A DNA stretch of 64,000 nucleotides from Succinivibrio dextrinosolvens DSM 3072 (GTDB lineage: Bacteria > Pseudomonadota > Gammaproteobacteria > Enterobacterales > Succinivibrionaceae): contig NZ_FUXX01000001.1 of the NCBI RefSeq assembly GCF_900167015.1, positions 89,733 to 153,732 of the forward strand. Reading direction: 5' to 3'. This document shows positions 43,358 through 45,838 of this stretch, piece by piece; position 1 is the first letter of the stretch, and each line of letters begins with the position of its first letter. A model generated the notes under the pieces. It was given only the letters and a program-made list of their open reading frames with translations, ran no database searches and was not told where the DNA came from. Made by a program: the position numbers and the translations under genes.

Positions 43358-44350
43358 GTGTCTGTTGTTGAACTACTAAAGCCAAAGCCAGTTGATTATA
43401 ATGAAATCAGTCCAAATCACGCACGTTTAGTGCTTGAGCCATTGGAGCGTGGTTTCGGTTATACACTTGGTGTTGCTTTAAGTGGAATTTTACTAAAGAC
43501 CCTGTCTGGAACCGCAATTGATGCTTTCCAGATGGCGGGCGTAAAGAACGTAAACAGCTTAAAGGATGATCTTGTTGAAAGTATCTTTGAAGTGGTTATG
43601 AATTTAAAATCACTTGCAATTACTTCAAAAGAGCCTCTAACTGAGCCTGTTTGGTTAACAATTGAAAGACGTGGCGAAGGAGAAGTTCACGCTTCTGACA
43701 TCGTATGTCCTGATAATTTATCATTTGTTGACCCTGAAGCCCGTATTTGCACTTTAAAAGGTGCCAAGGCTTCGTTGTCGATGAAACTTCGCATTACCTC
43801 AGGTTGTGGCTATGTTACAACTACTTCTGAGGACCATGTTCCTGCTGAGTCAGATGACGTTATTCTGATCGATGCTAACTACTGCCCAGTACGTCGTTAC
43901 GTATATGAGGTTGAGTCAGCTCGTGTTGAGCAGCGTACAGACTTAGACAGATTAGTCATTGATATGGAAACCGATGGAACTATTGCTCCTGAGGTTGCCT
44001 TAATGAAAGCTTCTGGCTTGATCTGTGACAGCATGGTAAATCTGGTTGATAAGGAAGAAATCAGCGAGCGAGTTGTTACTCCAGCTGCTCCTCCAATGCC
44101 AGACCCTGTTTTAATGCAGCTAGTTGATGATTTAGAGCTTACAGTTCGTTCAGCAAACTGCTTAAAGGCGGAGCAAATCATTTACATCGGCGATTTGGTA
44201 CAAAGAACTGAAGTTGAACTTCTAAAGACTCCAAATCTAGGTAAGAAGTCATTAAATGAAATTAAGGACGTTCTTGCTCAGAGAAATCTGTCTTTAGGTA
44301 TGCGTGTGGCTAACTGGCCTCCAGCAGGACTTCGTGTGCCAAACAAATAA
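43358..44350 (+). CDS. rpoA: RNA polymerase alpha subunit, first copy, diverged N-terminal domain
   Basis: 330 residues from GTG, in the usual rpoA place between rpsD and rplQ. It keeps LEPLERGFGYTLG (27-38), the MNLK lysine (K84, E. coli K86) and ARVEQRTDLDRLVIDMET, the segment equal to E. coli 190-207. It has lost features found in almost all alphas: the E. coli R44-R45 pair is S42-G43 (LSGILLKTL), DGVLHEYS has become AGVKNVNS, GIGPVTAADI has become GEGEVHASDI, and RGRGYVP has become SGCGYVT. The linker is normal and the C-terminal domain keeps R265-equivalent in LTVRSANCLK, so it should still bind UP elements and activators. Likely one half of an alpha heterodimer with the copy after rplQ. 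Confidence 0.95.
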   Translation: MSVVELLKPKPVDYNEISPNHARLVLEPLERGFGYTLGVALSGILLKTLSGTAIDAFQMAGVKNVNSLKDDLVESIFEVVMNLKSLAITSKEPLTEPVWLTIERRGEGEVHASDIVCPDNLSFVDPEARICTLKGAKASLSMKLRITSGCGYVTTTSEDHVPAESDDVILIDANYCPVRRYVYEVESARVEQRTDLDRLVIDMETDGTIAPEVALMKASGLICDSMVNLVDKEEISERVVTPAAPPMPDPVLMQLVDDLELTVRSANCLKAEQIIYIGDLVQRTEVELLKTPNLGKKSLNEIKDVLAQRNLSLGMRVANWPPAGLRVPNK

Positions 44351-44371
44351 CTGTTTTAGAAGGAATTAAAA

Positions 44372-44770
44372 ATGCGTCATCGTTTAAGTGGCCGTCATTT
44401 AGGTCGTACTTCAGCACATCGTGCTGCATTGTACCGTAACCTAGCTAAGGCATTAATCACTTACGAAGTAATCAAGACCACTGTTCCTAAGGCTAAGGAA
44501 CTACGTCGCTTCGTTGAGCCATTAATCACTCTAGCTAAGGTTGATACTGTTGCTAACCGTCGTTTAGCTTTTGCTCGTCTACGTGACGATGCAGTTGTAG
44601 CTAAGCTATTCACTGTTATCGGTAAGCTATCTGCTAACCGTAACGGCGGCTACACCCGTATCTTAAAGGCTGGTTTACGTGCATGTGATAGAGCACCAGT
44701 TGCTTACATCATGCTAACTGACCGCCCAGAAGTTGCTGAAGAGTCAAAAGATTCATCTGCAGCTGAATAA
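44372..44770 (+). CDS. rplQ: ribosomal protein L17
   Basis: 132 residues (E. coli 127). Starts MRHRLSGRHLGRTSAHR; YTRILKAGLRACDRAPVA is diagnostic. It lies between the two rpoA copies, normally the end of the alpha operon. A short Ser/Glu-rich tail follows the conserved part. Confidence 0.97.
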   Translation: MRHRLSGRHLGRTSAHRAALYRNLAKALITYEVIKTTVPKAKELRRFVEPLITLAKVDTVANRRLAFARLRDDAVVAKLFTVIGKLSANRNGGYTRILKAGLRACDRAPVAYIMLTDRPEVAEESKDSSAAE

Positions 44771-44777
44771 AATCCTT

Positions 44778-44802
44778 ATGGGCGCTGTATAATTGCGCCC
44801 AT
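44778..44802 (+). terminator. hairpin between rplQ and the second rpoA
   Basis: ATGGGCGC (44778-44785) with GCGCCCAT (44795-44802), nine-base loop, followed by the T-rich but broken TTAGATTTAT. It probably thins transcription into the second rpoA, or was the original end of the operon. The loop contains TATAAT (44788-44793), but no suitable -35 precedes it. Confidence 0.6.
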
Positions 44803-44848
44803 TTAGATTTATAGCTTACTAACTGTACTTAAAAACGAGGGTGAGACC

Positions 44849-45838
44849 TTGGATCAGATCATTGATTCTATTAAGCCAAACATAAAAGATGTTACTGAGC
44901 TTTCTCATAATATAAGCCGTGTAATTCTTGAGCCATTTGAGCCACACTATGCTCAAATTGTAGGCACAGCACTCCGTCGTATTATGCTGTCCTCTATTCC
45001 TGGATATGCCATCACCGCAGTTGAAATTGATGGTGTAGTGCATGAATACAGTGCAGTAGAAGGCATACAAGAAGATGTTCTTCTTATTCTTTTAAATTTA
45101 AAAGAAGTTGCTGTAGCTGCTGAAGGAATGCTAAGAGATGAACCAGTTCTTCATATTAGAAAGAAAGGCATTGGCCCTGTTACTGCAGGTGATATTCAGT
45201 GTCCTGCTGGCATCGAAATTAGAAATCCTGAGCAGATCATCTGTCATCTGACAGAAGAGAACAAAGAACTTAATATGCACCTACACGTAACCCGTGGTCG
45301 TGGATATGTTCCTTCAGTAAATCATCCACATGTTGATGGCACTGAAGAAAGATTTATTGGTCGTCTACTAATTGACGCTTCTTACTGTCCAGTACTTAAC
45401 GTAGCAGTTCACACTGCTCCACTAGCAGACAAGAAAGAGCAGTTAATTCTAGACATCGAAACCAACGGTACTATCGATCCAAAGAATGCTGTTGGAATCG
45501 CAGCAACCATTTTTGCTGATCAGCTAAATTCATTCGTTGATATCAGAAATTCTGTAGCACCTGCTGAAGATGCTTCATTCCGTCCTCTAATCGATCCTAA
45601 GTTGATCTGTCCTGTTGAGGATCTAGAGTTAACTGTTCGTTCAGCTAACTGCTTAAAGACTGAAGGCATCAAGTACATTGGTGATCTAGTACAGAAGACT
45701 GAAGTTGAGCTTCTTAAGACTCCAAATCTTGGTAAAAAATCACTTACTGAGATCAAGGATGTTCTTGCAGAGAGAGGATTATCTCTTGGTATGCGCCTAG
45801 AGAACTGGCCTCCAGCAGAGCTTGATTCAATAATGTAA
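44849..45838 (+). CDS. rpoA: RNA polymerase alpha subunit, second copy
   Basis: 329 residues from TTG (GAGGGTGA upstream), the E. coli length. It keeps what the first copy lost: LRRIMLSSIPG with R43-R44 at the E. coli R44-R45 positions, IDGVVHEYS, GIQED, GIGPVTAGDI, RGRGYVPS and GRLLIDASYCPV. It has lost what the first copy kept: LERGFGHTLG is FEPHYAQIVG (30-39), and ARVEQRTDLDK is PLADKKEQ in a shortened segment. The C-terminal domain is almost the same as in the first copy, with LTVRSANCLK and LLKTPNLGKKSL. By E. coli genetics it would be the beta-contacting subunit; that is inference. It follows rplQ by 78 bases and is followed by a terminator. Confidence 0.95.
   Translation: MDQIIDSIKPNIKDVTELSHNISRVILEPFEPHYAQIVGTALRRIMLSSIPGYAITAVEIDGVVHEYSAVEGIQEDVLLILLNLKEVAVAAEGMLRDEPVLHIRKKGIGPVTAGDIQCPAGIEIRNPEQIICHLTEENKELNMHLHVTRGRGYVPSVNHPHVDGTEERFIGRLLIDASYCPVLNVAVHTAPLADKKEQLILDIETNGTIDPKNAVGIAATIFADQLNSFVDIRNSVAPAEDASFRPLIDPKLICPVEDLELTVRSANCLKTEGIKYIGDLVQKTEVELLKTPNLGKKSLTEIKDVLAERGLSLGMRLENWPPAELDSIM

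Follow-up and report, generated by a model that had tools for sequence, protein, structure and literature searches.

As a rule, the alpha subunits of bacterial RNA polymerase form homodimers, and heterodimerisation of two different alpha subunits has been demonstrated in Francisella (PMC3294249). Here we describe a pair of rpoA genes on either side of rplQ in Succinivibrio dextrinosolvens DSM 3072, a member of the Succinivibrionaceae. The genes lie in a stretch of 64,000 nucleotides (contig NZ_FUXX01000001.1, positions 89,733 to 153,732 of the forward strand), which is called the window below. The two encoded proteins very probably act as one subunit split between two genes, with an oriented dimer of copy 1 and copy 2, in which beta is held by the second and beta-prime by the first, as the main form from which the enzyme is built. 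Copy 1 (rpoA1) is the gene upstream of rplQ and copy 2 (rpoA2) the gene downstream of it; residue numbers are those of Escherichia coli alpha.

Of the two diverged alphas of Francisella RNA polymerase, one keeps Arg45 and has lost Lys200 and the segment in the 190s, and the other has lost Arg45. The placement of alpha 1 on beta is an inference of the Francisella study, in which alpha 1 alone showed weak activity (PMC3294249). In E. coli, the R45A substitution prevents formation of alpha2-beta and insertions at positions 180 and 200 prevent binding of beta-prime, while footprint and mutant data point to R45 for beta and to residues 175-185 and 195-210 for beta-prime (PMC3294249). More than one rpoA per genome is also reported for Chloroflexus, Streptomyces avermitilis, Psychromonas ingrahamii and Leptospira borgpetersenii (PMC3294249). 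Unlike those of the Succinivibrionaceae, the copies of P. ingrahamii and L. borgpetersenii are identical, and the Chloroflexus pair lacks drastic changes in its contact regions and is possibly still equivalent (PMC3294249). Two different alpha-like chains are likewise present in archaeal and eukaryotic polymerases (Rpo3/Rpo11 and RPB3/RPB11), but there one partner is much smaller, whereas the two Succinivibrionaceae proteins have 330 and 329 amino acids and all three Pfam domains each.

The window contains two intact, non-identical rpoA open reading frames, as the preliminary description of this DNA had claimed. Matches to the RpoA dimerisation, insert and C-terminal domains (PF01193, PF01000 and PF03118) are above cut-offs in both, and the only two RNA_pol_L matches in the source genome are these two copies. 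The parts of the pair are as follows.

43358..44350, + strand: rpoA1 (copy 1), the alpha predicted to contact beta-prime; open reading frame of 330 codons with a GTG start, carrying PF01193, PF01000 and PF03118
43481..43486, + strand: copy 1 codons at the position of E. coli R44-R45, here Ser-Gly (sequence and alignment)
43919..43948, + strand: ARVEQRTDLD motif retained in copy 1 (sequence and alignment)
44372..44770, + strand: rplQ (ribosomal protein L17), between rpoA1 and rpoA2; open reading frame
44849..45838, + strand: rpoA2 (copy 2), the alpha predicted to contact beta; open reading frame of 329 codons with a TTG start, carrying PF01193, PF01000 and PF03118
44975..44980, + strand: copy 2 codons at the position of E. 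coli R44-R45, Arg-Arg retained (sequence and alignment)
45410..45445, + strand: shortened copy 2 segment in which EQRTDL is deleted, HTAPLADKKEQL (sequence and alignment)

Within the window, copy 1 has Ser-Gly in place of R44-R45, lacks HEYS, and carries GEGEVHASDI for GIGPVTAADI and SGCGYVT for RGRGYVP, while LERGFGxTLG and ARVEQRTDLD are retained. Copy 2 keeps RR, HEYS, GIGPVTA and RGRGYVP, and in it LERGFG has become FEPHYA and the EQRTDL stretch is deleted. This complementary pattern agrees with the preliminary description, according to which each copy keeps what the other has lost. The generality of the losses was examined in an alignment of 37 copy 1 and 38 copy 2 rows from eight genera (g1-g6, g8 and g10, the window included; four of these rows are incomplete), to which we refer as full-state, together with eight copy 1 and eight copy 2 rows from four genera referred to as half-way (g7, g9, g11 and g14), six single-copy rows of the family and 39 single-copy references.

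The R44-R45 pair is gone from copy 1 in 37/37 full-state rows, where SG, SD, ND, CG, SS or ST stands instead, and RR is retained in all 37 full-state copy 2 rows that reach the site. Copy 1 has also lost H66 (37/37), E67 (35/37) and Y68 (34/37), all three of which copy 2 retains in 38/38 rows. Conversely, full-state copy 2 has deleted residue 195 in 37/37 rows and residues 194 and 196 in 36/37, and A190, R191, L198 and D199 are altered in 37/37, with K200 retained in three; the span corresponding to E. coli 186-201 is 12 residues long rather than 16 in 33 of 38 rows. Copy 1 retains 190, 191, 194-197 and 199 in 36/36 rows, with K200 replaced by Arg in 35. G34, F35, G36 and T38 are lost in copy 2 as well, and nearly all of these are kept by copy 1 (F35 in 25/37). 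Two details of the preliminary description fared less well. The loss of RGRGYVP, present in the window along with the other copy 1 losses, is only partly general, Arg150 being kept in 13/37 full-state copy 1 rows. The positions K86 and V173, named there for beta-prime binding, do not separate the copies; the segment 182-199 does. K86 is conserved in both (37/37 copy 1 and 38/38 copy 2 full-state rows), and at V173 both copies usually have Ile (34 Ile and 2 Leu in copy 1; 30 Ile, 6 Leu and 1 Met in copy 2).

In the arrangement that these losses suggest, copy 2, which retains Arg44-Arg45, would hold beta, and copy 1, which retains the 190-199 segment, would hold beta-prime; the enzyme would be assembled mainly from the dimer of the two in a single orientation. 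This is the heterodimer, presumably an obligate one, proposed in the preliminary description; it gains support from the division of Arg45 (lost in 37/37 rows of copy 1, kept in 37/37 of copy 2), the division of the dimer interface and the matching losses in Francisella-like genomes described below.

The dimer interface contains a contact cluster in which residues 35, 38 and 39 of one chain face residues 46, 50 and 227 of the other (PMC3294249), so that a heterodimer comprises two such half-interfaces. Counted over the full-state rows, the half-interface made of copy 1 residues 35/38/39 and copy 2 residues 46/50/227 is ancestral in 202/224 cells, and the reverse half-interface (copy 2 residues 35/38/39 with copy 1 residues 46/50/227) in 36/221. 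A homodimer of either copy would set an altered face against an unaltered one twice, and the altered helix faces may block homodimers. This interface split is the strongest sequence argument for the pairing of copy 1 with copy 2. In the half-way genera the cluster is nearly all ancestral, except I46 in copy 1 (0/8) and three copy 2 cells.

Nonsynonymous to synonymous substitution rate ratios (dN/dS) were computed for within-genus pairs only, with dS of 0.05 to 1.2; the pairs share genomes and are not independent. Median values in the N-terminal domain are 0.118 for copy 1 (53 pairs) and 0.090 for copy 2 (50 pairs), and in the C-terminal domain 0.039 (75 pairs) and 0.020 (65 pairs), values which indicate that both copies are under purifying selection. 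The divergence between the copies is concentrated in the N-terminal domain: within a full-state genome the two proteins are 33% identical there and 84% identical in the C-terminal domain (35 genomes), and within a half-way genome 39% and 79% (eight genomes). From position 256 onward we found no residue that differs between the full-state copies at a fixation of 80% or more in both, and residues 265, 268, 269, 296, 298, 299 and 302 are conserved in every row that reaches them. The C-terminal domains of alpha bind DNA and activators. Because these domains are not divided up between the copies, the split likely concerns assembly and not promoter choice, and a promoter-choice switch was set aside for the same reason. 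Gene conversion in the C-terminal part was also set aside: the C-terminal tree, which has good support for just 2 of its 50 inner branches, groups the copy 2 rows (86) and most full-state copy 1 rows, and does not group rows by genome.

The half-way genera indicate a possible order of steps. Their copy 1 retains R44-R45 and residues 190, 191 and 194-196, 8/8 each. Their copy 2 has 190, 191, 194, 196 and 199 altered in 8/8 rows, is not shortened, and retains L198 as well as T38 and G36. Ten lost columns are common to both states in copy 2 and nine in copy 1. As none of the nine shared copy 1 losses is R44 or R45, the first step was probably the surrender of beta-prime by copy 2, followed by that of beta by copy 1. 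In a species tree built from beta and part of beta-prime (45 family genomes and seven outgroups, for which beta-prime was partial), g12 and g13, the genera with one alpha, form the sister group of all genera with two (support 100), and the latter divide into half-way and full-state clades with support of 100 each. An alpha N-terminal tree of 23 of the 45 two-copy genomes, calculated without Francisella-like rows, places the copy 1 rows of both states in one clade (98) and the copy 2 rows in another (99), as expected from a single duplication. Trees and parsimony support a single duplication once the single-copy genera had branched off, although loss of a second rpoA in g12 and g13 is conceivable, since the alpha tree gives no firm join of the two clades to the single-copy rows. 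Under this scheme a single duplication would have been followed by alteration of the beta-prime side in copy 2, and then by loss of the beta side from copy 1 in eight genera.

The preliminary description had pointed to Francisella as another organism with two heterodimerising alphas, correctly according to PMC3294249. Structures of the Francisella enzyme are available as 6wmp, 6wmr and 6wmt (PDB). For comparison we used two genomes (family f71), in each of which one alpha gene lies in the ribosomal operon and the other at a different place. The label Francisella-like rests on the score of the ribosomal-operon alpha (L201) against Francisella alpha 1 (6wmp_A; 557 bits). As in Francisella, Arg45 is kept by one alpha and lost by the other in the eight full-state genera (this is not so in the four half-way genera), the Arg45 keeper lacks beta-prime-side residues in the Lys200 region, and there are changes at dimer-interface residues. 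The two Francisella-like genomes have lost many of these columns as well, in matching roles, and there too the segment of the Arg45 keeper is shortened. Among 143 conserved columns, one-sided losses of the full-state Succinivibrionaceae and the Francisella-like pair agree in role 27 times and disagree 5 times (one-sided Fisher P = 1.7e-4); the stricter set of 98 columns gives 21 and 5 (P = 0.0024), and the half-way genera give 18 and 5 (P = 0.018). T38I, G36A and the deletion of 194-196 are common to the Arg45 keepers of both lineages, and F8L and the loss of R45, H66, E67 and Y68 to the non-keepers. Unlike the Francisella-like genomes, in which alpha 2 is encoded elsewhere, the Succinivibrionaceae have both genes in the alpha operon around rplQ, a difference of place and not of mechanism. 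They differ from Francisella also in that their C-terminal domains stay alike, the pair occurs in 12 genera, and half-way genera are extant.

Several observations weigh against the interpretation given here. Since R45 is kept in 8/8 half-way copy 1 rows, R45 alone would not force a heterodimer in those genera, where pairing may not be obligate; nor is their copy 1 simply ancestral, as it carries R182Y and the nine losses shared with full-state copy 1, which include S49 and T222. Over 98 conserved N-terminal columns the overlap of losses between the copies is not below chance (3 shared and 5.3 expected, P = 0.15), so that a global avoidance of same-column losses was set aside as not significant, and a looser set of 144 columns gives 14 shared losses for 14.0 expected; the signal is the location of the losses, not their overall overlap. 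The comparison by blocks gives P = 1.4e-5 for blocks picked after viewing the alignment, and the Fisher values above are descriptive, the columns not being independent. Identical derived residues separate the roles less well than losses do (23 same-role and 14 opposite), and in the Francisella-like pair the interface asymmetry is partial, with S50 and Q227 unaltered in both alphas. We found just 3 full-state-specific changes in 473 conserved columns of beta, with no clear matching change; beta-prime has 16 in 700. When the tree includes the Francisella-like rows, copy 1 no longer forms one clade across the two states, and approximately unbiased (AU) tests do not reject either grouping by role: full-state copy 1 joined to Francisella-like alpha 2 (p 0.77), and copy 2 joined to alpha 1 (p 0.51). 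Finally, the preliminary description had named a broken copy in a relative as evidence against pairing. None of the domain matches listed in the family survey has an internal stop, but a frame break with missing residues lies near the start of copy 2 in 1 of the 45 two-copy genomes (G045, the same as L034, at about 7435-7560; a metagenome assembly) and may be either a real loss or an assembly error.

Other explanations of the pair can be judged against the same evidence. Two complete alphas with all domains encoded, in a group of organisms where alpha is homodimeric as a rule (PMC3294249), could be taken to mean two separate polymerases, each copy forming homodimers with its own promoter preference. 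This would require a copy 1 homodimer without Arg45 on both chains (37/37 full-state rows) and a copy 2 homodimer without 194-196 on both chains (at least 36/37), and it is at odds with the undiverged promoter-contacting C-terminal domains (84% identity, against 33% in the N-terminal domain, and no fixed difference from 256 at the 80% threshold); we consider it very improbable. A milder form, compatible with the split-subunit reading, is partial specialisation, in which mixed dimers dominate and one homodimer is a working minority enzyme. The weak activity of Francisella alpha 1 alone (PMC3294249) speaks for it, as does copy 1 of the four half-way genera, which has Arg45 and most of 190-199, so that homodimers look possible there. 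In the clade of the window itself, however, neither copy keeps both surfaces, and either homodimer would pair an altered with an unaltered helix face twice, which leaves partial specialisation possible but doubtful. That copy 1 is a decoy or regulator while the enzyme uses a copy 2 homodimer would accord with the lower scores of copy 1 than of copy 2 against E. coli alpha and the RpoA models. It is nevertheless hardly credible for a gene under purifying selection (the median of 0.118 given above), with the beta-prime segment in 36/36 rows that copy 2 lacks, in the same operon place in 43/43 loci, and in a family where the sole frame break seen is in copy 2.

The Succinivibrionaceae and Francisella pairs might also descend from one ancient duplication or gene transfer and not from two origins, as the agreement of same-role losses (27 against 5) and the failure of the AU tests to reject grouping by role would allow. 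An AU test of all alphas of the family pair as one clade did not reject that grouping either (p 0.28). With the one-sided-loss columns removed, copy 1 is again one clade (89), as is copy 2 (97); the f71 alphas then pair with one another, both on long branches, and the AU tests of full-state copy 1 with alpha 2 and of copy 2 with alpha 1 give p of 0.32 and 0.08. Residues that a shared derived state would lack are still ancestral in the half-way genera, namely RR in copy 1 and both T38 and G36 in copy 2. Moreover, without Francisella-like rows each copy forms a clade across both states (98 and 99), the single-copy genera are sister to all two-copy genera in the beta/beta-prime tree (100), the gene places differ, and the C-terminal domains of the family are 87% identical to those of single-copy relatives and 62-64% to the f71 alphas. 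From the half-way genera, taken with gene order, species tree and C-terminal identity, we infer an origin separate from that of the Francisella pair, and regard a common one as quite unlikely.

Within the Succinivibrionaceae the pair is widespread. A survey of 56 genomes by insert-domain matches found two in 45 genomes, one in seven and none in four; the seven comprise five genomes of genus g12, one of g13 and a contig-edge piece in g1, so that 12 of the 14 genera have the pair. The order rpsD-rpoA1-rplQ-rpoA2 occurs in 43/43 fetched loci with both copies and rplQ on one contig, and one further family genome has its copies split over two contigs. The same order is found in 14 named loci (L033-L046), including S. 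dextrinosolvens, S. faecicola, an Anaerobiospirillum and Candidatus Avisuccinivibrio; several of these probably repeat surveyed genomes, and they are not counted as extra evidence. The copy 1 protein of the window is 99% identical to its counterpart in S. dextrinosolvens ACV-10.

Outside the family, three samples that overlap in some genomes were searched. In the order-level sample (295 genomes, five without a match) extra copies occur only in genus g24, where ten genomes have two to four rpoA copies each, with near-equal scores among the matches listed. Besides the genome of the window, the class-level sample (233 genomes, nine without a match) contains two copies in the two f71 genomes and in G405, and the phylum-level sample (199 genomes, two without a match) two or three copies in three genomes of g348. 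The two rpoA of G405 (L199 and L202) are 69% identical over 308 positions and lie on separate contigs of an assembly with 4% contamination, which is possibly mixed. The three g348 genomes (G622, G629 and G636), with two or three insert-domain matches each, are fragmented assemblies with 3-6% contamination. Psychromonas records (L051-L054, L056 and L061, L055 and L064) have rpoA on several contigs, which agrees with the report of identical copies in P. ingrahamii (PMC3294249).

The remaining features around the pair are listed below.

41810..41924, + strand: Alpha_RBS, alpha operon translational control element (RF00140), overlapping the rpsM start; Rfam 63.9 bits, gathering score 38
42687..43310, + strand: rpsD (ribosomal protein S4); open reading frame, order kept in relatives
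44778..44802, + strand: inverted repeat ATGGGCGC/GCGCCCAT in the rplQ-rpoA2 gap, followed by a poor T tract; read from the sequence
45844..45871, + strand: terminator-like hairpin 3' of rpoA2; scan, 12 pairs and a loop of 4

The terminator scan of the window gave five such sites in total, with 3.9 in shuffled sequence, and the inverted repeat at 44778-44802 is absent from its output. The rplQ-rpoA2 gap measures 158-186 bases in the half-way loci, with a hairpin candidate and T-rich tail in 8/8 (L090, L092-L095, L097, L098 and L116), and 56-106 bases in the full-state genera with the exception of g2 (137-517). Hairpin candidates were found in this gap in many relatives, and some genera may transcribe rpoA2 from a separate promoter. 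According to a simple upstream scan, start codons are weak in both alphas, GTG in 32/35 copy 1 rows and TTG in 33/34 copy 2 rows of the full-state genera, and TTG in 8/8 rows of each copy in the half-way genera; they might serve to balance the two products.

A separate observation concerns the beta subunit, which carries an insertion at about E. coli 413-417 (in the genome of the window L184:5856-10394, residues about 437-587). The stretch between its anchors has 148-163 residues in 40/40 genomes read from two-copy genera, and 15-17 residues in 5/5 genomes of single-copy genera and 7/7 references. The insertion and the alpha duplication map to one and the same branch, and no separate Pfam domain was found in the inserted stretch. 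In L198 (G055, genus g14) beta domain 6 is matched in two separate frames, which may reflect a split or a frame break of the beta gene in that assembly.

Among the papers listed in searches of open-licence literature we found no printed report of the Succinivibrionaceae rpoA pair, and a term search of the main text of a 2026 review of alpha-like subunits found neither Francisella nor rpoA. The family would be a second bacterial lineage with an alpha pair predicted, from comparison of sequences, to form an oriented heterodimer, and one in which the steps are likely preserved. We think it rather likely that the change from homodimer to oriented heterodimer has occurred at least twice in bacteria along a nearly identical path of residues, and that the Succinivibrionaceae keep its steps: a single alpha, a copy 2 without beta-prime contact beside a copy 1 still capable of both contacts, and a copy 1 whose loss of beta locks the pair. 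If so, the alpha symmetry of the core transcription enzyme would have been lost at least twice in bacteria via matching residue changes, and each alpha of a natural enzyme could be marked separately. With the single, the half-way and the fully split state all present in one family, the order of the change from a symmetric dimer to an obligate heterodimer would be directly testable, and the Succinivibrionaceae would offer a living series of the kind by which the two alpha-like subunits of archaeal and eukaryotic polymerases may have arisen.

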